Below, in pieces: positions 20,661-45,402 of a stretch of DNA of 45,402 nt. This DNA comes from an uncultured Desulfosoma sp. (lineage in GTDB: Bacteria; Desulfobacterota; Syntrophobacteria; Syntrophobacterales; DSM-9756), in NCBI GenBank assembly GCA_937960435.1, contig CALGPN010000001.1, positions 1 through 45,402 of the forward strand, written 5' to 3'. Position numbers and translations under genes: made by a program. How positions within the stretch are numbered: the first letter of the stretch is position 1; each line of letters starts with the position of its first letter. The notes under the pieces were generated by a model, which saw only the letters and a list, made by a program, of their open reading frames with translations, did no database searches and had not been told where the DNA came from.

Positions 20661-20672
20661 GAATCCCTCCTT

Positions 20673-21830: not shown

Positions 21831-21850
21831 GCATGCCCCCCTTCGGATGT

Positions 21851-22066
21851 CTATTCGATCACGGCTAAAACATCGTCTTCTTCCACGCGGTCGCCTTCGG
21901 ACACTTTGATTTCCTTGACGACCCCGCTGCACGGCGCATGAACGGACGTTTCCAGTTTCATAGATTCCATGACGATGATCTCGTCGTCTTCCTGCACCGC
22001 GTCGCCGGGCTTGATCTTGATCTTGAGGATTTTGCCCACCATGGGGGCCAGGACCTCTTCTGCCAT
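21851..22066 (-). CDS. biotin carboxyl carrier protein of the decarboxylase
   Basis: 71 residues, a bare biotinyl domain. The start ATG at 22066 follows AAGGAGG. The hairpin holding the biotin site reads VMESMKLE, with Lys37 as the biotinylated residue. Unlike GcdC or MmdC it has no Ala/Pro-rich linker and no N-terminal extension, so it must reach both the carboxyltransferase and the membrane subunit as a free shuttle. The 111-base gap upstream contains three near-tandem GAATCGT heptamers of unknown meaning. Confidence 0.92.
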   Translation of the reverse strand: MAEEVLAPMVGKILKIKIKPGDAVQEDDEIIVMESMKLETSVHAPCSGVVKEIKVSEGDRVEEDDVLAVIE

Positions 22067-22177
22067 GGGATGCCTCCTTGTGCTTCGTTGGATGGGTTTC
22101 GTTTTTACGAATCGTTTTTCGAGAATCGTGAATCGTCCCTCATGAAAACCGAAACAACGCCGCTTCGTTGCCACGGC

Positions 22178-23296
22178 TTACTTCAGCATGGAAAGAAAGA
22201 CCCCGGCGGCCAAAATGGTCCCAATGACCCCGGCGATATTCGGCCCCATCGCAAACATGAGCAAGTAGTTCTTCTTGTTGGCTTCGCTCCCAACTTGGTG
22301 GACCACCCGGGCCGACATGGGCACGGCCGAAACCCCGGCCGCCCCGATGAGGGGATTGATTTTGTCTTTTAAAAACAGGTTCATGAATTTGGCGAAAAGC
22401 ACGCCGGAAGCGGTGCTCACGGCGAAAGCCAGCAACCCCAAGATGAAGATGAAAATCACCTTGGGTTGCAAAAAAGTCGCAGCGTTCATGGTCGCCCCGA
22501 CGGACAGGCCGAGAAAGATCGTCACGATGTTCATGAGTTCGTTTTGGGCGGCCCCGGACAACCGTTCCACGACGCCCGATTCCCGAAACAGGTTTCCCAG
22601 CATGAACATGACCATCAGGGGCGCCGACGCGGGCACCACAAGGACCGTGACCAGCGTGGCCACGATGGGGAAAAGGATCCGCTCCAGTTTGGGAACCTTG
22701 CGGGATTTTTTCATGACGATGGCCCGTTCGGCCTGGGACGTCAAAAGCTTCATCACCGGCGGCTGAATGATGGGCACCAAAGCCATGTAAGAATAGGCGG
22801 CTACGGCGCAGCTTCCCAGCATGTGCGGGGCGAGCCGTGTGGCCAGATAGATGGTGGTGGGCCCGTCGGCCCCGCCGATGATCCCCGTCGTGGCGGCTTC
22901 CGGCAGCGTCATGCCCAGCAATCGCGCGACGAAAAAAGTGATGTACACACCCACTTGGGCGCCGGCTCCGAGAAAGATCAGCGAAGGGCGGGCCAGCATG
23001 GGGCCGAAGTCGGTGAGTGCCCCCAACCCCAGGAAAATGACGGGCGGGATGACCTCCCATTGCAGCCCGTAATGATAGAAGCGCCAGATCAGGCCTTCCC
23101 CGGGTTCCATGAGGCCCGTAAGCGGCAGATTGGCCACGAGGATCCCAAAACCGATGGGCAGCAAAAGGAGCGGTTCAAACTGCTTTGCTATGGCGAGATA
23201 CAAGAGCAGCCCGGCCACAACCCACATGAAAACCATCCCGGGCGTGACCGCCAGAATGCCCATTTGGGCCAACAAATCCAGCGGCCCTCCGTTCAT
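22178..23296 (-). CDS. sodium-pumping decarboxylase beta subunit (GcdB/OadB/MmdB family)
   Basis: 372 residues, about ten membrane segments. It contains the conserved GGADGPTTIYLA stretch near 140-151, whose Asp is required for Na+ transport in OadB, and the C-terminal IGAAGVSAVPMSARVV segment. It decarboxylates carboxybiotin and couples this to Na+ export across the inner membrane. The start ATG at 23296 follows AGGAG, two bases after the stop of the small subunit. Its presence, without biotin carboxylase, is the main evidence that this operon decarboxylates and conserves energy. Confidence 0.95.
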   Translation of the reverse strand: MNGGPLDLLAQMGILAVTPGMVFMWVVAGLLLYLAIAKQFEPLLLLPIGFGILVANLPLTGLMEPGEGLIWRFYHYGLQWEVIPPVIFLGLGALTDFGPMLARPSLIFLGAGAQVGVYITFFVARLLGMTLPEAATTGIIGGADGPTTIYLATRLAPHMLGSCAVAAYSYMALVPIIQPPVMKLLTSQAERAIVMKKSRKVPKLERILFPIVATLVTVLVVPASAPLMVMFMLGNLFRESGVVERLSGAAQNELMNIVTIFLGLSVGATMNAATFLQPKVIFIFILGLLAFAVSTASGVLFAKFMNLFLKDKINPLIGAAGVSAVPMSARVVHQVGSEANKKNYLLMFAMGPNIAGVIGTILAAGVFLSMLK

Positions 23297-23298
23297 GG

Positions 23299-23421
23299 CT
23301 ACTCCTCCTTGGTCGCCCGTTTCACCACATAAGCCAACAAATGCATCGCGCCGTAGAGAACGCTCATGCCTAGAAACACACCCAGGACTCCGTTGGCGAA
23401 AATGATCAAGGCTTCACCCAT
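23299..23421 (-). CDS. small membrane subunit of the decarboxylase (OadG/GcdD-like), 40 residues
   Basis: Only 40 residues from the ATG at 23421 behind GAGGCGG. One membrane helix (about residues 5-31, ALIIFANGVLGVFLGMSVLY) is followed by a short basic/acidic tail. Single-helix OadG-type gamma/delta subunits anchor the carboxyltransferase to the beta subunit; this one lacks the extended cytosolic tail of longer homologues. It is positioned immediately before the beta subunit, as in related operons. Confidence 0.75.
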   Translation of the reverse strand: MGEALIIFANGVLGVFLGMSVLYGAMHLLAYVVKRATKEE

Positions 23422-23428
23422 AGCCGCC

Positions 23429-24631
23429 TCAAATGACCCCCTGTTCCCGCAATCGGCGGATCTCTTCGTGCGAAAAGCCCAGCTCCTCCTGGAGGATCTC
23501 TTCCGTATGTTCGCCGAGAAGCGGCGGATGTCGCTCGATGACACACGGGGTGTCCGAAAACTTCATGGGGCTGGCCACAAGTTTCACCGACCCGGCCGCG
23601 GGATGGGGCACTTCGGCGACCATTTCGCGCGCCAGCACCTGAGGATCGGAAAACACACGATCCAGCGTATTGATGGGACCGCAGGGGATCTTCAGCCGGT
23701 CCAGGGCTTCGAGCCACTCGTCGCCCGTCTTCTGAAGCATGGCCTGAGCCACCAAGGGGATGAGTTCCTTTCGGTGGATGACCCGTTGAGGGTTCGTGGC
23801 GAAGCGAGGATCGTCGGCCAGAGAGTCGAGACCCGCCAAGCGGCAAAAATCCTGCCATTGGCGATCGTTTCCCACGGCAAGCGCGATGTAAGTCCCGTCT
23901 CTGCACTTGAAGGGCTCATAAGGGACGATGTTGGGGTGGGCGTTGCCGTATCTTTTGGGAATTTCACCGGAAACGAGATAGTTGCTGCCCACGTTGGCAA
24001 GCCACGCCACCACGGCGTCCAAAAGAGCTACATCGATGTATTGGCCCCGTCCCGTGACCGTTCTATGGTAAAGGGCCGCCAAGATGGCGCTGCAGGCAAA
24101 AAGGCCCGCCGTGATGTCCACAATGGCCACCCCCACCTTCATGGGCGGCCCGTCGGGGTCCCCTGTAATGCTCATCACGCCACCCATGCCCTGGATCATG
24201 AAATCGTAGCCGGGCTTATCCTTGTAGGGGCCGTTTTGGCCGAACCCCGTGATGGAACAGTAAATCAGACCCGGGTTGATCTTTTTCAGGTCCTCGTACC
24301 CCAAACCCATCTTGGGGAGGGTGCCGACCTTATAGTTTTCGATGAGGATATCGCTTTTGGCGGCGAGGGACCGGATGATCTCCCGCCCTTGTTCTTTCTT
24401 GAGGTCCACGGTGATGCTGCGCTTGTTTCGGTTGACGCACAAGTAGTAGGCGGCTTCCCCGCCCGCTTCCGGAGGTCCCCACTGGCGGGTGTCGTCCCCC
24501 GCACCGGGGCGCTCCACCTTGATGACATCCGCCCCCATGTCTCCCAGCATCATGGAACAATACGGCCCGGCAAGAACCCGGGAAAGATCCAACACCTTGA
24601 TGCCGTTCAGCGCCCTGGACCCATTCGTCAT
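23429..24631 (-). CDS. class III (CaiB/BaiF) CoA-transferase, probable glutarate CoA-transferase
   Basis: 400 residues from the ATG at 24631, 20 bases after the IclR stop; another in-frame ATG is eight codons upstream. The catalytic Asp lies in KPGYDFM. The overall pattern recalls human SUGCT (succinyl-CoA:glutarate CoA-transferase): VERPGAGDDTR, then WGPP, YYL-VNRNK-SI, MGLGYED, IYCSITGFGQ, and a KRYGNAHPNIVPY block. It would transfer CoA from succinyl-CoA or another donor to the imported acid. CaiB-family specificity is hard to read from sequence alone, so glutarate rests on this resemblance plus the dehydrogenase residues. Confidence 0.86.
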   Translation of the reverse strand: MTNGSRALNGIKVLDLSRVLAGPYCSMMLGDMGADVIKVERPGAGDDTRQWGPPEAGGEAAYYLCVNRNKRSITVDLKKEQGREIIRSLAAKSDILIENYKVGTLPKMGLGYEDLKKINPGLIYCSITGFGQNGPYKDKPGYDFMIQGMGGVMSITGDPDGPPMKVGVAIVDITAGLFACSAILAALYHRTVTGRGQYIDVALLDAVVAWLANVGSNYLVSGEIPKRYGNAHPNIVPYEPFKCRDGTYIALAVGNDRQWQDFCRLAGLDSLADDPRFATNPQRVIHRKELIPLVAQAMLQKTGDEWLEALDRLKIPCGPINTLDRVFSDPQVLAREMVAEVPHPAAGSVKLVASPMKFSDTPCVIERHPPLLGEHTEEILQEELGFSHEEIRRLREQGVI

Positions 24632-24651
24632 CACAATCCCCTTTTTCCTCG

Positions 24652-25476
24652 TCATCGGCGATGTTCCGATTCCCCCCCCATGTTTCCGACAAAAGGCTTG
24701 GGGTACGGGCCGCGCCAACCCATGCGCACGGACAGTTCCCGACCTGCCTCTAAAAGATGCTGCAGACAATGTTTTCGATGCTCCGAATTTCGAAAGCGCA
24801 ATTCCGGCACGGCAAGACTCAAGGCAGCCAAAAGATGGCCGCTGTGGGAAAAAACCGGCACACTCAAGGACCCCAATCCCAAAGTCCGCTCCGCCAAACT
24901 TTCCGCGTAACCGCGTTGACGGATCACGGCGATTTCCGCCTCCAGCATCTCTTTGTCCGTGATGGTGCGATCCGTCAAAGGTGCCGGGGAAAGGTCGGCG
25001 AGGTAAGCGCTAATGAAAGCGTCCGGGGAAAAGGCGAGGAGGCATTTGGAGGAAGCACCGGCATAGAGCGGCGATCGGTTTCCCACGGGCATCCCGGCCT
25101 TGAGCGACTGCATGGATTCCACACTGTCGATACACAACCGTTCCCGACCGTCCACCACGTTCAGATGCACCGTCTCCCCGGTTTCCAAACTGAGCCGCCG
25201 CATGATGGGCCCGGCTTCCTGAACCACCGCATGCTGACTCTGGAGCACTTCCAAAAACCGGTAATACACGCGCCCCAGCTGATACTGCAGAGTCTGAGGA
25301 TCCTGATCGACAAATTGGTATGCCTTAAGACTCTGCAGGATCCTCTGAATCGTCGCCGGACTGAAACCCAGATGGGCGGCAAGTTCGCGCACACCCCAGC
25401 GGGGTCGGTCCACTTGAAAGGCCAAGAGGACCTGGAGCGCTTTTTCTATGGCATTGGGCTGTCCGGTTCGTTTCAT
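24652..25476 (-). CDS. IclR-family transcriptional regulator
   Basis: 274 residues from the ATG at 25476 (a GTG at 25488 would add four residues). The N-terminal winged helix-turn-helix (IEKALQVLLAF... GVRELAAHLGFSPATIQRILQSL) occupies about 8-60, and the ligand-binding IclR domain about 80-250, with the typical TGETVHLNVVDGRERLCID segment. It is the first gene of the minus-strand catabolic operon, so it is likely autoregulated and senses a pathway intermediate. A palindrome at its own start is a likely operator. Confidence 0.93.
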   Translation of the reverse strand: MKRTGQPNAIEKALQVLLAFQVDRPRWGVRELAAHLGFSPATIQRILQSLKAYQFVDQDPQTLQYQLGRVYYRFLEVLQSQHAVVQEAGPIMRRLSLETGETVHLNVVDGRERLCIDSVESMQSLKAGMPVGNRSPLYAGASSKCLLAFSPDAFISAYLADLSPAPLTDRTITDKEMLEAEIAVIRQRGYAESLAERTLGLGSLSVPVFSHSGHLLAALSLAVPELRFRNSEHRKHCLQHLLEAGRELSVRMGWRGPYPKPFVGNMGGESEHRR

Positions 25477-25477
25477 A

Positions 25478-25500
25478 AAATAAAACACCGTTTTTTATTT
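25478..25500. promoter_or_regulatory. candidate IclR operator
   Basis: AAATAAAAC (25478-25486) and GTTTTTTATTT (25490-25500) form an imperfect A/T-rich inverted repeat around ACC, directly before the iclR-type gene and downstream of a good promoter. Regulators of this family often bind such sites by their own start. Confidence 0.4.
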
Positions 25501-32004: not shown

Positions 32005-34608
32005 ATGATGAGCGACATCAACATTTGGATCAACGATGAGCAAGTCAAGGCAAGGACGGGTCAGACGATCCTCCAGGCCGCCGATGCCGCCGGAATCTAC
32101 ATTCCTCGGCTGTGCTTCCATCCGGCCCTGGAACCCAGTGGATCCTGCCGCCTGTGCGCCGTGGAGATCGAAGGCCAAAGAGGCCTTCCGGCGGCGTGCA
32201 CGACGCCTGTGACCGAAGGGCTTCGCGTGCAGACCCAGTCTTCCAAGGTTATCGATTTTCGCCGCGAGATGCTGCAACTGATTCTTCGGGACCATCCGCG
32301 GCACTGCCTGGGATGCCCCCGTAACGGCACGTGTGAACTCCAAGAGCTGGTCGCGGCCGTAGGGATCGATTTCCCCTATGCCGCCCCGGACGTCACGCGG
32401 CCGGAACCACTGCCCGGCGGCCCCTATTTCGAAAGGGACTACAGCCTGTGTGTGCGCTGCGGCCGCTGTGTGCGGGTGTGTCACGAAGTGCGGGGCGCCC
32501 GCACCATCGTTTTTCGGGAATCCAAAGACGGGCGCCAATCCGTGGGCACTCCGTTCGGAAGGAGCCTGGAAGAGTCCGGCTGTCAGTTCTGCGGGGCCTG
32601 CGTGGATGTGTGCCCCGTCGGGGCGCTGCGGGAAAACCTTTCGGATTTCCACGGCGAGACCCGCTCGGCCATGGATGCCGTGTGCAGCGCTTTGACCGCC
32701 ATCGTCACAGACCTTTACAAGAAAGAACTGGAAACCCAATGGTCCACGGCCATCTGCCCGGTGTGCAGCGCCGGCTGTCGGCTCATGCTGGAAAAGACCG
32801 CCGATGAGTGCATCGTCCGGGTAAAGCCCAGTGTGGAGGGGCCCAGCAACAACGGGCAAGCGTGCGTGCAGGGCCGCTTCCTCCTCAAGCGTTACATCTC
32901 GCGACCCGAACGCATTCGTCAGCCTGCCGTGCGCACGGCCGACGGCTGGAAACCCCGTTCGTGGGACGAAGCTTTGAAGCACGTTGCCGAGACGCTCAAG
33001 GGCTACGCCCCGGAGCAAATCGCCGTGCTCACAGACGGCCGCTTGACCAACGAAGAACTCTATGTTCTGAATCGCTTGGCTCGAGAGTCGCTCAAGACGC
33101 CCCACGTGGGCCTCGTGGGGTCTGCAGGGTTGACCGCCTTCGAGAAAGCGGTCCGGCACCAGTTGGGAACAATGGCCGCCACCAACAGCCTCAAGGATTT
33201 GGCCCAAGCCCCGGCCATCTTCGCCATGGGGTGCAACCCCGCGGCATCGCATCCCATTGCGGGAACCGCGGTCCGGCAGGCGGTCCTTAAAGGCGCCAAA
33301 CTTGTGGTGGCCAATCCCTATGATGTCGCCATTGCGCGCTACGCCCACGTGCACCTGCGGTACGTGCCGGGATCCGAAACCGCTCTGGTCCTGGGACTGT
33401 TGCGGATCCTCTTGGATGAAAAAGGCGCGGACAAAAACGCCGGGCCGGATCTCCTGGCAGCGCTCAAGGACCTCACGGCCCCTTACGATGTGGAAACCGT
33501 CTCGCACCTGACCGGCATCCACGACGAAGAACTGGTGGAAGCCGGGTGCATGCTCGCGGCGCGAGACACCGTCGCCATACTCGCCGGACTCGGTGTTTTG
33601 GAATCTCCCGAGGTGGGCGACCTCACCCAGGCGCTCCTTTCTCTCGGCTTCGCCAAAGGAAGTTTCGGAAAACCGGGAGGAGGCCTCTGGCCGCTTTTCG
33701 GATCCTCCAACGCCCAAGGCGCCAGGGACTTAGGTTGGGACGCAGCCGTCATGGAAACCCTCGCTACCGGTCAGGTCAAGGCGGTCTTTGTGGCGGCGGA
33801 ATCCTACGACGAAGAATGCTGGCGGGCCTTGGGGGCTTACCGAGACGCTTTCGAATTCGTGGTGGTCCAAGACGTGGTGCCTCCCCCGGAATCTTTCCAG
33901 CCCCATGTGCTGCTGCCTTTAACGCCTTTATGGGAAAAGGAGGGGTCCTTGACCAACGCCGAGCGTCGTGTCCAATGGACGGAGAAGGCCCTGGCCCCCA
34001 TCACGGGATCCCATACGGTCATCCAAACGGCGGCGTCGCTGTCTCGGTTCCTCGGGGGAGCAGCCATCGGCGAGGAAGAACCTGGCGTAATCCTGAAAAC
34101 CCTGGCCGCCCAGCTGGGATCCTACGCAGGTATCGACCGAAGCCGCGCACGATACGAGGCGGTGCAGGTCCCCTGCCCTTCTGCAGACCATGGGGGAACG
34201 CCGATCCTTTTTGCCGATTCGGCCCCGGATTTTAAACCCTGGAAACCGTCCCGGCCGCCTCGGGCTCCCGAACCGGCCGAAGTGCGCCAGGAATTCCCCT
34301 TGCAATTGACGACCCAGGAAGCGCTGTACCCCAGCTATTTCGGTCCGCTGTTGGCCCCGGAGGCCAAAGCCGTCATGGCCTGTAACGGCGTGATCGAAAT
34401 GAACCCGGTCGATGCGTACCGTGTGGGAGCCATGCCCGGGGATACCGTGGCGGTGGTTTTTGACGGCGGTGAAGTGACGGGGCAACTGGCCCTGAACATC
34501 CACCTTCCCCTGAAGGTCGTGGCCGTCTCGGCGGAACATTTGCAGAGCGTCCTTGAGGCGCGCCGTCTATCGGGCACATCGCTGGCCGCAAAAGTGGAGA
34601 AGAGATAG
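32005..34608 (+). CDS. NuoG / formate-dehydrogenase-like iron-sulfur protein without recognisable Mo ligand
   Basis: 867 residues. Domains: [2Fe-2S] ferredoxin (Cys37, 48, 51, 65); His/Cys cluster region (His97/His100, Cys101, 104, 110); two [4Fe-4S] sites (Cys149/152/155/159 and 193/196/199/203); the Mo-oxidoreductase cluster (Cys251, 254, 258, 287); a long molybdopterin-like domain; and the C-terminal dinucleotide-binding domain. In formate dehydrogenases a Sec/Cys-His pair lies about 80 residues after the last cluster; here that segment (VGLVGSAGLT, about 368-377) has neither, and the Lys after the fourth cluster Cys is Gln (CVQGR). It is therefore probably an electron conduit, as NuoG or SfrA, not a formate dehydrogenase. 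First gene of the operon, with a TCAGGGG ribosome site. Confidence 0.85.
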   Translation: MMSDINIWINDEQVKARTGQTILQAADAAGIYIPRLCFHPALEPSGSCRLCAVEIEGQRGLPAACTTPVTEGLRVQTQSSKVIDFRREMLQLILRDHPRHCLGCPRNGTCELQELVAAVGIDFPYAAPDVTRPEPLPGGPYFERDYSLCVRCGRCVRVCHEVRGARTIVFRESKDGRQSVGTPFGRSLEESGCQFCGACVDVCPVGALRENLSDFHGETRSAMDAVCSALTAIVTDLYKKELETQWSTAICPVCSAGCRLMLEKTADECIVRVKPSVEGPSNNGQACVQGRFLLKRYISRPERIRQPAVRTADGWKPRSWDEALKHVAETLKGYAPEQIAVLTDGRLTNEELYVLNRLARESLKTPHVGLVGSAGLTAFEKAVRHQLGTMAATNSLKDLAQAPAIFAMGCNPAASHPIAGTAVRQAVLKGAKLVVANPYDVAIARYAHVHLRYVPGSETALVLGLLRILLDEKGADKNAGPDLLAALKDLTAPYDVETVSHLTGIHDEELVEAGCMLAARDTVAILAGLGVLESPEVGDLTQALLSLGFAKGSFGKPGGGLWPLFGSSNAQGARDLGWDAAVMETLATGQVKAVFVAAESYDEECWRALGAYRDAFEFVVVQDVVPPPESFQPHVLLPLTPLWEKEGSLTNAERRVQWTEKALAPITGSHTVIQTAASLSRFLGGAAIGEEEPGVILKTLAAQLGSYAGIDRSRARYEAVQVPCPSADHGGTPILFADSAPDFKPWKPSRPPRAPEPAEVRQEFPLQLTTQEALYPSYFGPLLAPEAKAVMACNGVIEMNPVDAYRVGAMPGDTVAVVFDGGEVTGQLALNIHLPLKVVAVSAEHLQSVLEARRLSGTSLAAKVEKR

Positions 34609-34610
34609 CC

Positions 34611-35456
34611 ATGTATCCAATTGTCGACCATGAAGTATTGGCTCCCAGGGTCCATCGGCTCCGCGTCAAAGCCCCGGTGGTCGCAGAAAAGGCCAAGCCC
34701 GGCCAGTTCGTGATCCTCATCATCGACCAAAAAGGGGAGCGCGTGCCGTTCACCATCAGCGACTGGGATACGGACGCCGGGACGGTGGATTTCGTTTTCA
34801 TCGAAGTGGGGAAAACCACTCGGCAGCTGGCCACTCTCCAACCCGGAGACACCCTGTTGAGCTTCATCGGCCCCTTGGGTCGCCCCGCAGAAGTGGACCA
34901 CTACGGTCATGTGGTGTCGGTCCTCAGCGGATACGGCATTGCGGCCATGGTTCCCATCCTCAAGGCGCTCAAAGAAAAAGGCAACACCCTGACCACCATC
35001 GTGCAGGCGCCGGATGCCGAGCGTCTCTTCGGTCAAAAGCCGCTGGAAGAGCTGAGCGACACCGTGATTTGGGCTTTGGGCACCAAGGGCGACGGGATGA
35101 TGGAAAGCACCACGGTGGCCATGCGAAAACTGCTCAACCAGCACCCCAAGCGGCGCATCGACCGCGTGATCGCCATGTGTTCGTTGTGCCTCATGCGGGT
35201 GCTGTCGGAAATGACCCGCCCCTATGCCATCAAAACCATGGTGCACCTCACCCCGGTGATGGTGGACGGCACGGGAATGTGCGGCGCCTGCCGGTTGAGC
35301 GTCGGGCGCACCAACCGATTTGCCTGCGTGCACGGTCCGGAATTCGACGGCCACGAAGTGGACGGGTGGGAAGTGTTGATGGCCCGCCGGTGCACTTATG
35401 CCGATGAAAGCATCCTTCAGCAGGGATTCCAGTGCCGCGGATGTTCCCAATGGTAA
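34611..35456 (+). CDS. NfnA/SudB-like FAD and [2Fe-2S] flavoprotein subunit
   Basis: 281 residues, two bases after the preceding stop. Ferredoxin-NADP reductase-like fold: an FAD-binding beta barrel in about 1-100 (RVPFTISDW), an NAD-binding region (SGYGIAAMVPILKAL), and a C-terminal [2Fe-2S] site in VDGTGMCGACR with Asp219, Cys224, Cys227 and Cys239, where NfnA uses one Asp and three Cys. In NfnAB it pairs with the larger subunit, encoded next, to couple NADH, NADPH and ferredoxin by flavin-based bifurcation. In Pyrococcus the same pair is called sulfide dehydrogenase. The exact acceptor here may differ, because extra partners are encoded in the operon. Confidence 0.88.
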   Translation: MYPIVDHEVLAPRVHRLRVKAPVVAEKAKPGQFVILIIDQKGERVPFTISDWDTDAGTVDFVFIEVGKTTRQLATLQPGDTLLSFIGPLGRPAEVDHYGHVVSVLSGYGIAAMVPILKALKEKGNTLTTIVQAPDAERLFGQKPLEELSDTVIWALGTKGDGMMESTTVAMRKLLNQHPKRRIDRVIAMCSLCLMRVLSEMTRPYAIKTMVHLTPVMVDGTGMCGACRLSVGRTNRFACVHGPEFDGHEVDGWEVLMARRCTYADESILQQGFQCRGCSQW

Positions 35457-35522
35457 AATCGCCTCGGCACCAGCCCCATCGGCGTCGACAGGGATGTGCG
35501 GTTTTTTTAAGGAGAAGAGGCA

Positions 35523-37004
35523 ATGACGGATGAAAAAGAAACCAAGGGCGCCCCGGAGAAAAAACCGAAGCTCAACTTGAACCGGGTGGAGATGCCCAAA
35601 CAGTCGGAACATGAGCGCCGCCACAATTTCGATGAGGTGGCGTTGGGATACACGTGGGAAATGGCCAAGGAAGAGGCGTCCCGGTGCATCCAGTGCAAAA
35701 AGAGACCCTGTCAGCAGGGCTGTCCGGTAAACATCGACATTCCGGATTTCATCGCCGCCTTGCAGCGTGAGAATATGGAAGAAGCCGCCAAGGTCCTGAA
35801 GCGGAAAACCTCTCTTCCGGGGGTGTGCGGGCGGGTTTGTCCCCAGGAGCTTCAGTGCGAAAACGCGTGCACTCTCAATAAGAAGGGGGCGCCCGTGGCC
35901 ATCGGCCGTCTGGAGCGCTTCATCGCCGATTGGGAACGCACGCAAGGCTCGGCCACCATGCCGGAGATGGCGCCGTCTACGGGAAAGAAAGTGGCGGTGG
36001 TGGGGTCCGGCCCATCGGGCCTTACGGTGGCTTCGGACCTGGCCATTTTCGGGCATCAGGTGGTGCTTTTCGAAGCCTTGCATGTGGCCGGCGGGGTGCT
36101 CATGTACGGCATCCCCGAGTTTCGGCTCCCCAAGGAAATCGTCCAGCGGGAAGTCCAGTACGTGCAATCCTTGGGCGTAGATCTGCGGCTCAACACGGTC
36201 ATCGGCATCAACTACAGCCTGGACGAGCTGTTGCGGACAGACTACGACGCCGTCTACCTGGCCCCCGGTGCGGGTCTTCCGAAGTTTCTGGGCGTCCCCG
36301 GGGAAAACCTGAACATGGTTTATTCGGCCAACGAGTTTTTGACGCGCACCAACTTGATGAAGGCCTACCTCTACCCCGAATACGCCACCCCCATCAAAAT
36401 GGGCAAAAAGGTCGCGGTCATCGGCGGCGGCAACGTGGCCATGGACGCGGCGCGTTGCGCTGTGCGCCTGGGAGCCCAAGAAGTTTACGTGATTTATCGC
36501 CGGACCCGCGCCGAAATGCCCGCGCGGCTCGAGGAAGTGGAAAACGCCGAAGAAGAAGGGATCCAATTCCATTTCCTTTGCAACCCGACGGCGTTCCTGA
36601 GCGACGGCCGAAATAACGTGGCCGCCATGGAACTCATCCGCATGAAACTCACCGAACCCGACGAAAGCGGTCGGCGCCGCCCCGTGCCCATTCCCGGCAG
36701 CGAATACATACTGGATGTGGATACCGTGGTGGTTTCTCTGGGAACTTCCCCGAACCCGCTGATCCCGTCCACGACGCCGGATCTCAATGTGACCCGGTGG
36801 GGTACCGTGGTCATCGACGAACGCGGCCGAACCTCGAAAGCCCGTGTGTGGGCTGGCGGCGATATCGTTTCGGGGGGGGCCACAGTGATCAGTGCCATGG
36901 GGGAGGGCCGCATCGCCGCGGCGTCCATGCATGAGTACCTGTCCAACGGGCAGAAAAAGATCATTCCTCCCAGTCCCCAAAAGGACGACGACAAAACGGA
37001 ATAA
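35523..37004 (+). CDS. NfnB/SudA/GltD-like FAD-dependent oxidoreductase
   Basis: 493 residues, start behind AAGGAGAAGAGG. Two N-terminal [4Fe-4S] motifs (Cys55/58/63/67 and Cys102/106/112/116) precede an FAD Rossmann motif GSGPSGLT at 161-168. An NAD(P) motif GGGNVAMDAAR near 300 is followed by YRRTRAEMPAR, whose Arg pair favours NADPH. The conserved GGDIVSGGATVISAMGEGR ends the FAD domain. In NfnAB this subunit holds the bifurcating FAD and the NADPH site. Homologous small subunits of glutamate synthase look alike, but no glutamate synthase large subunit is nearby, while NfnA and HdrA are. Confidence 0.9.
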   Translation: MTDEKETKGAPEKKPKLNLNRVEMPKQSEHERRHNFDEVALGYTWEMAKEEASRCIQCKKRPCQQGCPVNIDIPDFIAALQRENMEEAAKVLKRKTSLPGVCGRVCPQELQCENACTLNKKGAPVAIGRLERFIADWERTQGSATMPEMAPSTGKKVAVVGSGPSGLTVASDLAIFGHQVVLFEALHVAGGVLMYGIPEFRLPKEIVQREVQYVQSLGVDLRLNTVIGINYSLDELLRTDYDAVYLAPGAGLPKFLGVPGENLNMVYSANEFLTRTNLMKAYLYPEYATPIKMGKKVAVIGGGNVAMDAARCAVRLGAQEVYVIYRRTRAEMPARLEEVENAEEEGIQFHFLCNPTAFLSDGRNNVAAMELIRMKLTEPDESGRRRPVPIPGSEYILDVDTVVVSLGTSPNPLIPSTTPDLNVTRWGTVVIDERGRTSKARVWAGGDIVSGGATVISAMGEGRIAAASMHEYLSNGQKKIIPPSPQKDDDKTE

Positions 37005-37028
37005 GGATCGAACAAGGGAGAAATCATC

Positions 37029-40000
37029 ATGACCAATGCGACGCGACCCACCCCTTCGAACCCCATCGGATCCGTCATGGTGGTTGGTGGAGGCATCGCC
37101 GGCGTCCAGGCTGCTTTGGATTTGGCCGATTCAGGGTATTTCGTCCATCTCATCGAGAAAAGTTCGGCCATCGGCGGCGTCATGGCCACACTCGACAAGA
37201 CCTTCCCCACAGACGACTGCTCCTTATGTATTTTGTCGCCCAAATTGGTGGAAGTGGGACGGCACCTCAACGTCCAACTGCACACCTTGGCCGAAGTCAA
37301 AAGCGTGGCCGGGGAAGCCGGAAATTTTAAGGTGACCGTTTTTCAGAAAGCCCGGTTCATCGATATGGAAAAATGTATCGGGTGCGGCACCTGTGCGGAA
37401 AAATGCCCCCGCAAAGTTCCGGACGAATACAACGCGGGCTTGGGCAAGAGAAAAGCCGCCTACGTCAAATTCCCCCAGGCCGTGCCGTTGAAATATGTGA
37501 TCGACAAAGACCACTGCATCTATTTCGAAAAGGGCAAATGCCGGGCTTGTGAAAAATTCTGTCCCACACAGGCGGTCAATTTCGATGACCAGGACCGTGA
37601 GTTCACCTTGGATGTGGGCAGCATCATCCTAGCGCCCGGCTTCGAACCGTTCGATCCCAGGATTTACGACACTTACAACTACGCGAAACTGCCCAATGTG
37701 GTCACCTCCATGGAATTCGAGAGGATCCTCTCGGCTTCCGGCCCCTTTGAAGGTCATCTCGTGCGCCCCTCCGACCACCAAGAACCCAAGAAGATCGCGT
37801 GGCTGCAATGTGTGGGTTCTCGGGATATCAACCGGTGCGACAACGGGTATTGCTCTTCGGTGTGCTGCATGTACGCCATCAAACAGGCCGGGATCGCCAT
37901 CGAACACAGCGGGCCGGATCTAGATACGACGATCTTTTTCATGGATATGCGCACCCCGGGCAAGGACTTCGACAAATACTACGAGCGGGCTCGGCGGGAA
38001 AAGGGCGTCCGGTTCATTCGCTCGCGCGTCCACAGCATCGAAGCGGTGCCGGGAACCGACGACCTGGCCATCCAATATGTGACGGATGACGGTCGAATCG
38101 CGGAAGAAACCTTTAACCTGGTGGTCCTGTCGGTGGGGCTTCAGATCTCCAAAGATACCCTGGAGATGGCCGAACGGCTCGGGATTGAAATCGGCGACGG
38201 GCGTTTTGCCGCCACCTCACCGTTTGAACCCGTCCAAACCTCCCGAAGCGGCATCTACGTGTGCGGCGTCTTCCAAAGCCCCAAGGATATTCCCCTTTCG
38301 GTCATGGAAGCCTCGGCCGCCGCGGCGGATTCCGCCGCTTTGCTCGCCCCCGCTCGAAACAGCCTGACCCGAAAACCGCCGATCCTTTCCGAAAGGGACG
38401 TGGCCGCCGAGGAGCCTCGAGTGGGCGTTTTCGTCTGCCATTGCGGGATCAACATCGCCGGGGTCATCGACGTGGCGGCTGTGGCCGATTATGCGGAAAC
38501 CTTGCCTTCGGTGGTTTACGTGGAACGCAACCTCTTCACCTGCGCCCAGGACACGCAGGACAAGATGAGAAAGGTCATCGAGGACCACAAGCTCAATCGC
38601 ATCGTCGTCGCCGCATGTTCCCCGCGCACCCATGAGGCGTTGTTCCAGGAAACCCTGCGTCAGGCGGGACTGAACAAGTATCTTTTTGAAATGGCGAACA
38701 TCCGCAACATGGGCTCCTGGGTGCACATGAACGAGCCGGAAGCCGCCACGGAAAAGGCCAAAGACATGGTCCGCATGGCCGTGGCCAAAGTGGCGCTCCA
38801 GCAGCCCCTGGGCGAAATTCAACTGAATGTGACCAAGTCGGGGCTCGTGGTGGGAGGCGGTATCGCCGGCATGACGGCCGCCTTGACACTGGCCGACCAA
38901 GGCTACCCCGTCACCTTGGTGGAACGTAAGGACGTCCTGGGCGGGCACGGGCGAAAACTCTATTCCACATGGGACGGCCAGCCCATCGCCCCGTACCTGG
39001 ATGAACTCATCAACCGCGTCATCGAGCACCCCAAGATCACCGTGCTCACCAATGCGAAAATCCAAGACGTGCAGGGTTTTGTGGGCAACTTCCACACGGT
39101 GATCGACGTGGCTGGAACGCGCAAGGAAATCGACCACGGGGTGGCGATCCTCGCCATCGGGGCCCATTCCCTCAAACCCAACGAATACGGCTACGGACAA
39201 AGCGACCGGATCTTCCTCAACCTGGATCTGGACAAGGCCATCAGCGAACGCGACCCGCGGATCATCAACGCCCGCTCGGCCGTCTTCATCCAGTGCGTGG
39301 GATCGCGCGAACCCGAGAGACCTTATTGCAGCCGTGTCTGTTGCAGCCATTCCATCGAAAATGCGCTGCGACTGAAAAAACTGGACCCCGAGATGGATGT
39401 CTACGTTTTGTACCGGGATATCCGCACCTTCGGGCTCAGGGAAAATCTCTACAAGGAAGCGAGAGCCCGGGGAGTCCTCTTCATCCGGTTCGACCTGGAA
39501 AAGAAACCCGACGTCCAGGTCGCTTCGGACGGCTCTTTGACGGTGACGGTGGTCGACCACGTCCTGCAACGTCCCATCGTCCTCAAGCCCGACATCCTCA
39601 CTCTGGCCTCGGCCGTCGTCATGCGCGCGGCGGAAGCGGATGAACTGGCCAAACTGTTCAAGGTACCGCTCAATGCCGAGGGCTTTTTCCTGGAAGCCCA
39701 TGCGAAACTTCGCCCCGTGGATTTCGCCACGGACGGCGTCTTTGTGGCAGGTCTCGCCCATTATCCCAAACCTACGGAAGAATGCATCGCCCAAGCCAAG
39801 GCCGCGGCCGCCCGGGCGGCAACGGTTTTGGCCAAGGATTCTATCCTGGCCGGCGGGGTCGTTGCCCTGATCAACAAGGATCTGTGCTGCGGCTGCCAAG
39901 GCTGCGTCCAGGTCTGCCCCTTCGGGGCCATCTCCTATCTGGAACAGGAAGCCAAGTGTGAGGTGAACCAGGCCTTGTGCAAGGGTTGCGGCACCTGTGC

Positions 40001-40088
40001 GGCCACATGCCCTTCGGAAGCCATCACGCTGCTGGGATTTTCACATCTGCAGATCTACACCCAGATCGACGAGGCCTTGACGGCTTAG
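37029..40088 (+). CDS. double-length HdrA: two FAD domains and several [4Fe-4S] sites
   Basis: 1019 residues, AGGGAGA site. Two HdrA-like halves are fused. The N-terminal half has FAD motif GGGIAGVQAA at about 20-29, ferredoxin cysteines from about 116 (CIGCGTCAEKC) and 167-182, and the CVGSRD...YCSSVCC signature. A junction at about 468 (VCHCGIN) starts the second half, with FAD motif GGGIAGMTAA near 604 and a second CVGSRE...YCSRVCC. The C-terminus has two ferredoxin motifs near 953 and 985 (CCGCQGCVQVC and CKGCGTCAATC). HdrA carries out flavin-based electron bifurcation in heterodisulfide reductase complexes. Here there is no hdrB or hdrC; the neighbours are MvhD and Nfn genes. Confidence 0.92.
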   Translation: MTNATRPTPSNPIGSVMVVGGGIAGVQAALDLADSGYFVHLIEKSSAIGGVMATLDKTFPTDDCSLCILSPKLVEVGRHLNVQLHTLAEVKSVAGEAGNFKVTVFQKARFIDMEKCIGCGTCAEKCPRKVPDEYNAGLGKRKAAYVKFPQAVPLKYVIDKDHCIYFEKGKCRACEKFCPTQAVNFDDQDREFTLDVGSIILAPGFEPFDPRIYDTYNYAKLPNVVTSMEFERILSASGPFEGHLVRPSDHQEPKKIAWLQCVGSRDINRCDNGYCSSVCCMYAIKQAGIAIEHSGPDLDTTIFFMDMRTPGKDFDKYYERARREKGVRFIRSRVHSIEAVPGTDDLAIQYVTDDGRIAEETFNLVVLSVGLQISKDTLEMAERLGIEIGDGRFAATSPFEPVQTSRSGIYVCGVFQSPKDIPLSVMEASAAAADSAALLAPARNSLTRKPPILSERDVAAEEPRVGVFVCHCGINIAGVIDVAAVADYAETLPSVVYVERNLFTCAQDTQDKMRKVIEDHKLNRIVVAACSPRTHEALFQETLRQAGLNKYLFEMANIRNMGSWVHMNEPEAATEKAKDMVRMAVAKVALQQPLGEIQLNVTKSGLVVGGGIAGMTAALTLADQGYPVTLVERKDVLGGHGRKLYSTWDGQPIAPYLDELINRVIEHPKITVLTNAKIQDVQGFVGNFHTVIDVAGTRKEIDHGVAILAIGAHSLKPNEYGYGQSDRIFLNLDLDKAISERDPRIINARSAVFIQCVGSREPERPYCSRVCCSHSIENALRLKKLDPEMDVYVLYRDIRTFGLRENLYKEARARGVLFIRFDLEKKPDVQVASDGSLTVTVVDHVLQRPIVLKPDILTLASAVVMRAAEADELAKLFKVPLNAEGFFLEAHAKLRPVDFATDGVFVAGLAHYPKPTEECIAQAKAAAARAATVLAKDSILAGGVVALINKDLCCGCQGCVQVCPFGAISYLEQEAKCEVNQALCKGCGTCAATCPSEAITLLGFSHLQIYTQIDEALTA

Positions 40089-40112
40089 GCCACAGAGGCG
40101 GGAGACAGAATC

Positions 40113-40553
40113 ATGGCAGAACGTTTCGAACCGAGAATATTGGCGATCTTGTGCAACTGGTGCAGCTACGCCGGAGCGGACCTGGCCGGGGTCAGCCGTT
40201 TTCAATATCCCCCCAATGTACGTGTCATCCGCGTCATGTGCTCGGGAACGGTGTCGCCCCATCACGTGATCCACGCCTTCCAACGGGGTGCCGATGGGGT
40301 GTTGGTCGCCGGCTGCCACATCGGTGACTGCCATTACCTCAAAGGAAATTACATGACGTTAAAACGCATGAAATTCGTCCAGGAACTCATCCGCTTTGCC
40401 GGCTACAACCCGGAACGGTTCCGCTTGGAATGGATCTCCTCGGCCGAAGGGGTGAAATTCGCAGAAGTCATCCGAGACTTTACGGAAAAGGTCCGATCCC
40501 TGGGCCCCGCCCCGTCCTTCGAGGCGAGCCCGCGTTTGGCCATGGGACTGTAA
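40113..40553 (+). CDS. MvhD/FlpD-like [2Fe-2S] electron-transfer subunit
   Basis: 146 residues, full length for MvhD, which passes electrons between a dehydrogenase or hydrogenase and HdrA. Five conserved cysteines: Cys14 and 17 (LCNWCSY), Cys43 (VMCSG), Cys68 and 73 (GCHIGDC), the set that binds a [2Fe-2S] cluster. It follows hdrA by 24 bases, the order seen in Hdr clusters. With no hydrogenase in the operon, its partner is probably the NuoG-like/Nfn module or the following iron-sulfur protein. Confidence 0.92.
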   Translation: MAERFEPRILAILCNWCSYAGADLAGVSRFQYPPNVRVIRVMCSGTVSPHHVIHAFQRGADGVLVAGCHIGDCHYLKGNYMTLKRMKFVQELIRFAGYNPERFRLEWISSAEGVKFAEVIRDFTEKVRSLGPAPSFEASPRLAMGL

Positions 40554-40593
40554 CGGCGAAAAATCGACTCGCTTATCGCACAGGATGGATCTC

Positions 40594-41385
40594 ATGAAGA
40601 CCAAAGTCCGACAATTGCTGGAAGAAGGTCGCGTGGACGCCTTCATCGCTTACAAAACGGTCCACGGCCTGCCTTTCCCGACGGTTTTCACCAAAGCCGA
40701 TGTGGGGGTGCTGGAAACGTGGCAGCCGTTCAAGGCTCGATATCCCGTCACCAAGCTCCTCCTTGCCCAAGCGCGGCAAAACCCCGACAAGACCTTCGGG
40801 GTGCTGGTGCGGGGCTGCGAGGAGCGCTCCCTTTATGAACTCTTCAAATGGAACCAGCTGCATCCGGACAAGGTTGTGGTTCTCGGACAGGCCTGCCCGC
40901 AGGACCTGGCTTTCTACTGCGAGTGCCCCAAACCCTATCCGGACCATTTAGACTACGGGGAAGCCCCGAAGCCGGTGCAGGAAAGCCGGCGGCTCGGCGA
41001 ACTCCACGGCATGCCGGAAACGGATCGGCTCGCCTGGTGGCTCGGCCACTTCAACCGCTGTATCCGTTGCTATGGCTGCCGTGATGTGTGCCCGGTGTGT
41101 TTCTGCACCGAATGCAGCCTGGAACACAAGGAACTCATCCCGACGGGGAAACTACCGCCCGATACATCTTTTCATCTGGTTAGAGCCGTCCACATGGCGG
41201 GCCGCTGCATCGACTGCGGGCTGTGTGAAGAAACATGCCCGTCCCATATCCCGCTCCGGGCCCTTTACAAACACGTCAACAGCCTGGTGGAAGGGATTTT
41301 TCAGTACAAAACGGGTGTGCCCGACGGCAAGTCCCCCTTCACCATGCTGGGCGAGGAAAGTTTTCTTCCCACGGGCGTTCGATAG
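40594..41385 (+). CDS. iron-sulfur protein with two cysteine clusters (HdrC/FdhB-like), last gene of the Nfn-Hdr operon
   Basis: 263 residues from the ATG at 40594, which has AGGATGG at good spacing; an ATG at 40585 adds three residues but lies within that site. The N-terminal ~120 residues (FTKADVGVLETW, GVLVRGCEERSLYELFKWNQL, GQACPQDLAFYCEC) resemble the FrhB/FdhB family of F420-type beta subunits. The C-terminal half has two cysteine clusters, one near 152-172 (CIRCYGCRDVCPVCFCTEC) and one near 207-217 (CIDCGLCEETC), giving two [4Fe-4S] sites as in HdrC. It probably takes the electron-carrier role next to HdrA. The physiological partner is unknown. Confidence 0.8.
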   Translation: MKTKVRQLLEEGRVDAFIAYKTVHGLPFPTVFTKADVGVLETWQPFKARYPVTKLLLAQARQNPDKTFGVLVRGCEERSLYELFKWNQLHPDKVVVLGQACPQDLAFYCECPKPYPDHLDYGEAPKPVQESRRLGELHGMPETDRLAWWLGHFNRCIRCYGCRDVCPVCFCTECSLEHKELIPTGKLPPDTSFHLVRAVHMAGRCIDCGLCEETCPSHIPLRALYKHVNSLVEGIFQYKTGVPDGKSPFTMLGEESFLPTGVR

Positions 41386-41417: not shown

Positions 41418-41450
41418 GTCGGGGCACGAGATCCGTGCCCCGACTGTTTT
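41418..41450 (+). terminator. Rho-independent terminator of the Nfn-Hdr operon
   Basis: GTCGGGGCACG (41418-41428) and CGTGCCCCGAC (41434-41444) form a perfect 11-bp stem with a five-base loop, followed by TGTTTT. It lies 33 bases after the last operon gene. Confidence 0.93.
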
Positions 41451-41652: not shown

Positions 41653-42064
41653 CGTCCGCTTCCTTTCCGTTTGTTCGTGGCCACGTCCGGGTCCGGAGTC
41701 GCCCTCAGCCCCAAAGGCCTGAAGTTCGCGACTGGACCGGAGCCGACCCTCATTTTTTGACTCCGCAAGTATTTTTTTGAGAGTTATACACCCAAGAGGA
41801 TTTTCACTTACAGTCCCATCAAGCAGGCCTTTTCCCCGCTGTGCGTCGAGTGTTGCCGAGCGGGGACCCCACCCGGTCGGGTGCGGTTTTGACCAACCCG
41901 TCCCAAGAGTGCCAAGCATCACCGAACGAGTCCTTTCCGGGCAAGCCATTTGAGAGCTGCGAACAGACCCGCATGAGCAGGCCCGCACCACGGTCGGTTT
42001 TTCCTTTGGCGGGACGCGCTGAAGTTTTTGGGAACCCAGAGATGTGGCCGCCCTGTAGGGGCTG
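41653..42064. other. non-coding stretch before the repeat block
   Basis: Contains the probable upstream region of the entericidin-like gene and a small hairpin CACCCG/CGGGTG (about 41870-41883). The open frames here have no ribosome site and run into repeat sequence, so I call no gene. Confidence 0.4.
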
Positions 42065-42182
42065 GCCTTGTGCCCGCCCGTGGGTTTTTACGGGCCGGCC
42101 GATGTGCCCGCCTGCAGGTTGGAACGCTCCTCGGCATCCACCCGTAGGGGCGGGCCTTGTGCCCGCCCGTGGGTTTTTGGGG
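42065..42182. repeat. 118-base G+C-rich repeat, copy A
   Basis: Identical over all 118 bases to 44991-45108 and in the same orientation. It contains hairpins, for example GGGCGGGC/GCCCGCCC around CTTGT, and two GTGCCCGCCCGTGGGTTTTT units, so it is itself built from smaller repeats. A similar ~46-base spacer and the 31-base palindrome follow in both copies. Confidence 0.9.
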
Positions 42183-42228
42183 GCGAGCTTTGTGCCCACC
42201 CATGGCTTGCCCCGGGCCGGGTGTTTGT

Positions 42229-42259
42229 GTTGGGGTTCGCTGCGCTCACCCCAACCTAC
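42229..42259. repeat. 31-base palindromic interspersed repeat, copy 3
   Basis: Identical 31-base unit (GTTGGGG...CCCCAACCTAC) to copy 1, placed 46 bases after the 118-base repeat. Confidence 0.88.
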
Positions 42260-44655: not shown

Positions 44656-44990
44656 AATAAAAATTGAAACCGACGAAGTGATCAGAAAGCCGGATAATTT
44701 CGACGCACACTTTGAAACGTTCGACGATGGTTCTAGTTGGCGCCGAAACACCACCATTCCAAGATGGCTGATGGCAAGCTCTGGAAACACCGCATCGACA
44801 GCTCTCAGTGCCCTCAAGGGCGCACTCACCCATGGTGACGAGGCCATCGGCGACGCGCTGCTCTTATCCGTGGGGATCGTTCAGATGCTCAGAGTCGGCC
44901 CCGGATAAAAGAATCAAACAACGCGATTGGCACCCCCGCGAAGACTCGGCGGTCGTCACATGAGCCCGTGCCGCCTGCCTGGTGGGGCAA
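44656..44990. other. intergenic stretch between chemoreceptor promoter and repeat block
   Basis: Contains a plus-strand open frame 44678-44908 (76 codons) without a ribosome site or recognisable motif; it may be debris of a lost gene. Nothing else was seen. Confidence 0.35.
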
Positions 44991-45108
44991 GCCTTGTGCC
45001 CGCCCGTGGGTTTTTACGGGCCGGCCGATGTGCCCGCCTGCAGGTTGGAACGCTCCTCGGCATCCACCCGTAGGGGCGGGCCTTGTGCCCGCCCGTGGGT
45101 TTTTGGGG
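44991..45108. repeat. 118-base G+C-rich repeat, copy B
   Basis: Same 118 bases as 42065-42182, same orientation. Together they bracket a ~2.8 kb segment carrying the chemoreceptor gene. Confidence 0.9.
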
Positions 45109-45152
45109 CAGGCCTTGTGCTTGCCCGTTGTTCGCCCGGGGCGGGTGCTTGT

Positions 45153-45183
45153 GTTGGGGTTCGCTGCGCTCACCCCAACCTAC
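45153..45183. repeat. 31-base palindromic interspersed repeat, copy 4
   Basis: Fourth copy of the GTTGGGG...CCCCAACCTAC unit, 44 bases after copy B of the long repeat, mirroring the arrangement at 42065-42259. Confidence 0.88.
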
Positions 45184-45260
45184 GTTCTTACAGCCTTGTG
45201 CCCGCGAGAAGAAAATTGTTTCGGGTGGAGAGATGTGCCCGCCCGTAGGTTGGGATGGCC

Positions 45261-45327
45261 CATCCACCCGTAGGGGCGGGCCTTGTGCCCACCCGTGGGT
45301 TTTTACGGGCCGGCCGATGTGCCCGCC
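45261..45327. repeat. partial third copy of the long repeat units
   Basis: A 67-base stretch built from the same parts in permuted order: CATCCACCCGTAGGGGCGGG, the CCTTGTGCCC unit with one base change, then GTGGGTTTTTACGGGCCGGC and GATGTGCCCGCC. This shows the long repeat is a mosaic of smaller modules. Confidence 0.75.
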
Positions 45328-45355
45328 CGAAGGGATGCGCCCGTACCGCGCGCAC

Positions 45356-45383
45356 AAAAAAAGCTTCGGTGTTGCCGAAGCTT
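45356..45383 (-). terminator. terminator for a leftward gene beyond the window
   Basis: AAGCTTCGG (45361-45369) pairs with CCGAAGCTT (45375-45383); on the minus strand the stem is followed by a run of seven T. It should end transcription of a minus-strand gene whose body lies to the right, outside the window. Confidence 0.75.
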
Positions 45384-45402
45384 GGCTGCAGGGTGGTGGG
45401 CG

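Follow-up and report, generated by a model that had tools for sequence, protein, structure and literature searches.

In the Fdh-Hdr and Elp-Hdr complexes, a formate dehydrogenase (FDH)-type chain (FdhA or ElpA) together with FdhB or ElpB and MvhD or ElpC makes up the arm that feeds HdrA (PMC12350162). ElpA is a dead FdhA that is present in the purified complex and is without the pterin site, and Elp-Hdr runs on F420H2 (PMC12350162). Here, we examined six genes at positions 32005-41385 of a 45,402-nucleotide stretch of DNA (contig CALGPN010000001.1; hereafter the window) from an uncultured Desulfosoma sp., a relative of the sulfate-reducing Desulfacinum. As in the Fdh-Hdr and Elp-Hdr arms, an FdhA-type chain, FdhB, MvhD, and HdrA are encoded together in this cluster, with no pyridine-nucleotide enzyme other than NfnAB in the operon. 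We favor, with a rough probability of 55%, the reading that the six genes encode an Elp-like, soluble, NAD(P)H-linked bifurcating complex in which a dead FDH wires NfnAB to HdrA. The composition, gene order, dead FDH site, bifurcation-linked residues, and FdhB identity are read from the sequence, and from these a single physical complex, its direction, and its partners are proposed.

The six open reading frames all lie on the + strand with intergenic gaps of 2, 66, 24, 24, and 31 bases. They encode, in order, an FDH/NuoG-like protein, NfnA, NfnB, a double HdrA, MvhD, and an FdhB-like protein, and are followed by a terminator-like hairpin (41418-41444, + strand; 11 pairs, 9 of them GC, with the T-rich tail TGTTTTATTG). 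An earlier interpretation made without database searches (the sequence-only reading) had described an uninterrupted six-gene cluster closed by a strong terminator. The cluster was found as described, and Pfam and NCBIfam upheld its assignments for the first five genes. Because a hairpin scan returned 25 such sites versus 19.1 expected, "strong" is a fair but not a certain description of the terminator. The nearest upstream gene, in divergent orientation, encodes an alpha-glucan phosphorylase. NiFe-hydrogenase (PF00374) had no match on the window contig and had matches elsewhere in the genome, in line with the claimed absence of a hydrogenase from the cluster, and a hydrogenase-linked complex was rejected on this ground. 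Likewise, the HdrB/CCG domain (PF02754) was matched elsewhere in the genome and not on the window contig, and HdrBC is thus not encoded in the cluster.

The first gene (32005-34608, + strand) encodes an 867-amino-acid protein with Fer2_4, NADH-G_4Fe-4S_3, Molybdop_Fe4S4, and Molybdopterin domains, corresponding to a [2Fe-2S] domain, a NuoG-type 4Fe-4S region, and a predicted inactive FDH domain. Its NCBIfam scores for formate dehydrogenase alpha and NuoG were nearly equal (287 and 271 bits). PDB profile matches were headed by FDH alpha chains (9wxb, 6tg9), and FDHs were also the top matches of its structure model (7bkb_D, template modelling [TM] score 0.78, normalised to the target). This model, predicted as a single chain like all structure models here, had a predicted local distance difference test (pLDDT) score of 75.6, with low values at residues 161-240. 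The sequence-only reading had described a NuoG/FDH-like protein; in PDB searches the protein is closer to FDH alpha chains than to NuoG, and its active site is dead. A plain NuoG identity was rejected because FDH alpha chains score higher in those searches.

The active-site residues were then compared across 17 rows with a dead site, the window included. At the catalytic Cys/selenocysteine (Sec) position, which aligned with Gly375 of the window protein (33127-33129, + strand), Gly occurred in 14 rows and Ser, Glu, and Asn in one each. The Lys of the CxKG motif was replaced by Gln in all 17 (Gln289 in the window; 32869-32871, + strand). We take these two positions to be the catalytic residue and the functional lysine of FDHs. 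By comparison, six of six hand-picked comparison FDHs retained Lys together with either Cys or an in-frame stop codon, taken to encode Sec. Both residues were also kept in five of five further FDH-like genes (L054, L057, L086, L092, and L093), a sixth (L091) ending short of the active-site region, and hence in 11 of the 11 live FDH-like genes checked. The 17 dead rows were separated from the 6 live ones in a tree with a support of 100/100. Furthermore, 13 of 13 dead rows shared the same 20 Cys/His positions that read as iron-sulfur (Fe-S) ligands. The lost chemistry and the kept clusters fit an electron wire. Judged by these residues, the first subunit is a predicted pseudo-formate dehydrogenase whose active site has been lost, which is new in this analysis.

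An active formate dehydrogenase was rejected, as the catalytic Cys/Sec and the CxKG Lys were present in none of the 17 rows. The corresponding explanation, that the subunit is a catalytically competent NAD(P)H/ferredoxin-dependent formate dehydrogenase and is coupled to HdrA, is very improbable: the fold and domain order are those of NAD-dependent FDH alpha chains, and live FDH genes lie directly upstream of NfnAB in L115 (stop/Sec; NfnB is truncated by the contig end) and L120 (Cys), yet both residues are gone throughout the dead rows. The nine other live FDHs include genes beside HdrA-MvhD-FdhB (L058, L087, and L123), so a nearby HdrA alone is not tied to a dead FDH. The dead FDH goes with the combination of NfnAB plus HdrA; for one of its 17 rows (L090), the contig ends before any HdrA could show.

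The second gene (34611-35456, + strand) encodes a DHODB-type NfnA of 281 amino acids, identified by Pfam, NCBIfam, and alignment, with the conserved VDGTGMCGAC motif. The third (35523-37004, + strand) encodes a 493-amino-acid NfnB that scored above the TIGR01316 cut-off and carries two 4Fe-4S motifs and flavin adenine dinucleotide (FAD) and NAD(P) domains. All residues marking NfnAB were present: the [2Fe-2S] motif of NfnA, a protein with an Asp ligand, and the Glu ligand and bifurcating-FAD Arg of NfnB. Glu131 of NfnB (35913-35915, + strand) presumably coordinates the proximal 4Fe-4S cluster and occupies the position of StnC Lys170, as determined by counting along the alignment match. Arg201 (36123-36125, + strand) corresponds to Arg187 of T. 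maritima NfnB, which, like Lys409 of HdrA, lies at N5 of the bifurcating FAD (PMC6405883). Both Glu131 and Arg201 were kept in 17 of 17 NfnB proteins of the cluster type, the window included. The double HdrA (37029-40088, + strand; 1019 amino acids) comprises a FAD half with an inserted ferredoxin domain, followed by an HdrA N-domain, a second FAD half, and two 4Fe-4S motifs; NF040770 matched it in three stretches, below the cut-off. Lys285 in its first FAD half (37881-37883, + strand), the equivalent of HdrA Lys409 of 5ODC, was found in all 12 six-gene HdrAs, the second half having Glu in 11 and Gln in one. The two flavin-based bifurcation modules named in the sequence-only reading thus keep their linked residues.

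The NfnAB pair resembles the NfnAB transhydrogenase (4ylf, 5jca) in both subunits and key residues, and differs from it in the NfnA tail and in four more operon subunits. This C-terminal tail (35391-35453, + strand) carries three Cys and a terminal SQW, all unchanged across 13 of 13 rows, and may serve for docking or for binding a metal. The three-Cys tail also occurred in FDH-type and G039 kin (L113, L115, and L116) and not in L119, L120, and L121.

The Stn transhydrogenase (StnABC; PMC10482914) is alike in joining an NfnB-like module to a NuoG-like chain that ends in an inactive FDH domain. It differs in its HydBC-like StnAB, in having no NfnA and no HdrA, and in the Lys at the cluster ligand; the window cluster has NfnA, Glu, and, in place of StnAB, HdrA, with no StnAB-type HydBC-like partner among its six genes. 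The StnC flavin does not bifurcate (PMC10482914). Lys at the Glu131 position was found in six HdrL NfnB-like domains, aligned from the window genome and its relatives, and in the StnC-like protein of the window genome. The Arg201 equivalent is also present in the HdrL and StnC-like domains, so only Glu131 discriminates the bifurcating kind, to which the window NfnB would belong by its residues. This bears on the explanation that NfnAB is a non-bifurcating, pyridine-nucleotide input and HdrA the single bifurcation site, as HdrL-type fusions suggest. Bifurcation can be lost in an NfnB-like domain that is joined to a NuoG-like chain, as the example of StnC shows (PMC10482914), and the StnC-type Lys occurs in every HdrL domain checked. 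However, the discriminating Glu is retained along with the Arg in all cluster-type NfnB proteins, and the NfnA partner is complete with its conserved motif, making this explanation improbable.

The StnC-like protein is a 1220-amino-acid fusion of NuoG-like, NfnB-like (with the Lys ligand), and FDH-like parts (G000:C45:19549-23208; L069:5550-9209). By visual inspection of their first residues, the products of neighboring reading frames do not resemble StnA or StnB, and it is possibly an orphan StnC.

In HdrL, an NfnB-like domain is fused to HdrA (PMC2702500). Such a fusion is also encoded in the window genome; in the window itself, the NfnB-like domain and HdrA are separate genes. The HdrL/MvhD and FdhAB-HdrL-MvhD clusters (PMC2702500, PMC12142623) resemble the window cluster in combining an NfnB-like domain with HdrA, in the adjoining MvhD, and, at some loci, in FdhB/FdhA. 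They differ in that the NfnB-like domain is inside HdrA and that no NfnA is named in the available portions of these reports; the Lys ligand is known only from the six HdrLs of the window genome and relatives. HdrL-type clusters of relatives (L046:3305-14480, L050:3244-14219, and L118:4014-10437, the last cut by a contig end) carry two NfnB-type domains per operon, with Lys in the HdrL domain and Glu in the separate NfnB. What looks like a second Hdr cluster of the window genome (G000:C15; L065:6086-15129) has an HdrL and an HdrA-like gene beside two small genes, one HdrB-like by CCG matches and the other, by eye, HdrC-like.

The last two genes encode MvhD (40113-40553, + strand; 146 amino acids), a [2Fe-2S] connector matched by PF02662 with an E value of 1.6e-55, and a 266-amino-acid protein with an FdhB-like start and two 4Fe-4S motifs (40585-41385, + strand). 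For the latter, Pfam and NCBIfam assigned only the 4Fe-4S motifs. A profile built from 15 relatives matched FdhB of F420-linked FDHs (9t1s_M, 8rvu_E, and 7bkb_E) with E values of 1.2e-35 to 5.6e-32, and the only matches of its predicted structure at E ≤ 0.001 were ElpB (8rvu_E, TM score 0.37) and FdhB (7bkb_E, TM score 0.35). It is 114-148 amino acids shorter than the FdhB/ElpB chains matched (380-414), and in the alignment nothing corresponds to a middle segment of FdhB. Subunit 6 is, on these matches, a predicted shortened FdhB. The sequence-only reading had called it an HdrC/FdhB-like iron-sulfur protein, of which the FdhB part stood and the HdrC identity was rejected, the profile and structure matches being FdhB and ElpB. 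That reading also had MvhD joining Nfn and HdrA; MvhD alone is probably not the link, but it would be part of a dead-FDH/FdhB/MvhD arm like those of Fdh-Hdr and Elp-Hdr.

Of the described systems, Elp-Hdr of methanogens (ElpABC-HdrABC; PMC12350162; PDB 8rvu) is alike in that a dead FdhA, FdhB, and MvhD homologues lead into a bifurcating HdrA. It differs in its F420H2 input through the FAD of ElpB and in the presence of HdrBC, whereas the window cluster has a shorter FdhB, a would-be NfnAB input, a double HdrA, and no HdrBC. Moreover, ElpA is without the pterin domain, whereas subunit 1 of the cluster keeps the domain and has lost the active-site residues. Fdh-Hdr (FdhAB-MvhD-HdrABC, 7bkb; bacterial HdrBCA-MvhD-FdhBA, PMC5736913) shares FdhB, MvhD, and HdrA with the cluster, in which the FDH is inactive, NfnAB is added, and HdrBC is not encoded.

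Conservation was examined at 15 loci of relatives in which subunit 6 was at least 56% identical, the genomes being partly drafts. All six genes were collinear at 10 loci, two (L046 and L050) kept this order but had HdrL instead of HdrA, and contig ends cut the remaining three (G003, G006, and G039). An additional full cluster occurred in the uncultured Desulfobacterium sp. TRIP AH-1 (L078, the same place as G183). Including the window, 12 collinear six-gene loci from three families were thus found, and the order was the same in relatives whose first gene was only 40-49% identical. Conservation of gene order beyond close relatives, on which the sequence-only reading had staked its proposal, was therefore borne out. 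Stops in genes of L051 and L052 were rejected as frameshifts, since they lie at or near the C-terminal end. The HdrA genes of L041, L043, and L044 each contain a single in-frame stop at the position of Cys67 in the window; they were rejected as pseudogenes because the single stop falls at a Cys position and is inferred to be Sec, which is probably a selenocysteine/cysteine exchange in HdrA among close relatives.

Among 55 genomes of the class, its own included, orthologues of the FdhB-like subunit (E ≤ 1e-120) and of NfnA (E ≤ 1e-130) were found in 18 and 19, respectively, all 18 being shared. The two genes were on one contig within 10 kb in 15 of the 18 and on different contigs in three; in two of the 15 (G040 and G041), NfnAB-FdhB occurs with no HdrA. 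At the ends of other contigs, G003 and G006 carry dead FDH-NfnA-NfnB with the start of HdrA or HdrL; G006 is thus a further case of HdrL in place of HdrA, split by contig ends. By family, and counting HdrL forms and contig splits, the six-gene type was present in 8 of 8 genomes of f1 and 7 of 26 of f3, and in none of the 5, 3 (FDH type), 12, and 1 genomes of f2, f5, f6, and f4, respectively. Across 395 sampled genomes of the phylum, with up to six candidates scored per genome, cluster-type NfnA (E ≤ 1e-115) occurred in 10, including a single genome from outside the class. Thus, although conserved in three families, the cluster has a narrow distribution. A pattern-based genome scan gave at least 24 loci, naming Desulfacinum, Desulforhabdus, and Desulfoferrobacter; this count is a lower bound because the scan needs exact short peptides. 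Named carriers are Desulfacinum infernum, Desulforhabdus sp. TSK, and Desulfoferrobacter suflitae, together with D. hydrothermale, in which the cluster is in two pieces with HdrL, and one full locus is probably attributable to Syntrophobacter fumaroxidans. A search of the flanking 6 kb, or of as much of it as the examined stretch covers, revealed no seventh gene common to all clusters, shared neighbors being limited to the window's family or to two to four loci.

Phylogenetic trees were used to trace how the cluster arose. In the HdrA tree, 16 of the 17 rows labelled six-gene formed one clade (100/99), whose sister group (99/99) consisted of seven HdrAs from HdrA-MvhD-FdhB loci; two of the nine rows labelled in the latter way fell elsewhere, one of which, L052up, has no MvhD or FdhB beside it. 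The FdhB-like proteins of 16 of 17 rows also formed one clade (99/98), and the 17th row, G039, was outside both clades. The support for grouping NfnA of the 17 rows, 90/85, fell short of what the tool counts as strong. The HdrL-type rows L046, L050, and L045 were scattered in the HdrA tree, and their extra domain was thus gained more than once or moved by recombination. On the simplest reading of these trees, a single event brought together an FDH-NfnAB unit and an HdrA-MvhD-FdhB unit, and the FDH site was lost. In the genus of L115, L113 and L114 have NfnA-NfnB-FdhB without HdrA or MvhD, and a piece upstream of NfnA on the L113 contig (L083) reads by eye as an FDH C-terminus.

A bolder proposal is that a live FDH-NfnAB met HdrA-MvhD-FdhB and its FDH site decayed, leaving two bifurcation sites, NfnAB and HdrA, in series in one enzyme through the pseudo-FDH, with NADH, NADPH, ferredoxin, and a disulfide pool in four-way exchange. 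We regard it as possible but tentative. Two bifurcating modules in series, the second being HdrA, have likewise been proposed for the class II benzoyl-CoA reductase Bam complex (PMC9304861), which differs in that its first module is HydBC-like (BamGHI) rather than NfnAB and that it has a tungstopterin active site.

Several observations weigh against a single six-subunit complex. FDH-NfnA-NfnB occurs without HdrA in the 10 kb examined (L120), FdhB directly follows NfnAB in L113 and L114, and HdrA-MvhD-FdhB is found without the NfnA-NfnB pair in L122-L127. G039 has NfnAB with no FDH in 3.1 kb upstream, and in L090, as far as its contig goes, dead FDH-NfnAB and FdhB are separate convergent units. 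The model of subunit 6 is poor in its Fe-S half (pLDDT < 50 at 157-221). The genes could instead be transcribed together yet encode two distinct enzymes: an NfnAB transhydrogenase to which the dead FDH is an accessory, and an HdrA-MvhD-FdhB enzyme whose donor (FDH, HdrD, or other) is encoded elsewhere. Each half occurring alone in other genomes and the convergent units of L090 speak for this, as does NfnAB being known as a two-subunit enzyme (PMC6405883). Moreover, the 95% complete window genome has no close NfnA match besides that of the cluster, the next best being 30% identical. However, order and co-occurrence are maintained across three families, the dead FDH is the sole FDH-fold protein in the operon, and the position of FdhB directly after NfnAB in L113 and L114 links the two halves. 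We therefore consider separate enzymes unlikely, though a serious alternative.

In the one-complex reading that we favor, NfnAB would exchange electrons with NADH and NADPH, and the dead FDH would dock to NfnB, an arrangement that mirrors StnC, in which NuoG-like and GltD-like parts are fused. Electrons would then pass reversibly from NAD(P)H through NfnAB, the Fe-S chain of the dead FDH, the FdhB-like subunit, and MvhD to the bifurcating FAD of HdrA. NADPH, at about -380 mV, is near H2 (-414 mV), the donor of Mvh-Hdr (PMC9304861). At HdrA, electrons would be split or merged between ferredoxin and a partner of high potential acting in trans; this partner may be a disulfide reductase of the HdrD type. 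The sequence-only reading had noted that a catalytic HdrB is absent. None is indeed encoded in the cluster, but a gene with 4Fe-4S dicluster and CCG domains, which we take to be HdrD-like, directly follows it in 3 of the 12 loci (L051, L052, and L078), and a homologue 76% identical to the L052 protein is encoded on another contig of the window genome. The link to HdrD is weak because such homologues (E ≤ 1e-60) occurred in 39 of 40 genomes searched, with or without the cluster, which also counts against this part of the proposal.

Apart from the cluster, the window contains GC-rich dispersed repeats at 42047-42259 and 44973-45397, with a 136-nucleotide unit and other copies 96% and 60% alike; their 21-nucleotide hairpin core occurred five times (≤2 mismatches) versus none in 100 shuffles. 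Genes at 19104-25488 encode a glutaryl-CoA dehydrogenase, a Na+-pump decarboxylase beta subunit, carboxyltransferase-like subunits, a CoA-transferase, and an IclR-type regulator, likely for glutarate/glutaconyl-CoA use. A 489-amino-acid protein at 11507-12976 matched methanogen-type thymidylate synthase below the cut-off (122.1 of 174.55 bits) and, weakly, MtrA.

No description of the six-gene combination was found in the open-access literature among the matches listed, insofar as their text was available, and no paper there was found to pair Desulfacinum with HdrA. The cluster bears on how sulfate reducers and syntrophs balance their NADPH, NADH, ferredoxin, and thiol pools. The occurrence of the cluster in named organisms makes it testable. 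If the six proteins form one complex, it would be a case of a bacterial dead FDH kept as the electron arm of HdrA and fed by pyridine nucleotides rather than F420H2, and it would argue directly for two bifurcation sites acting in series.

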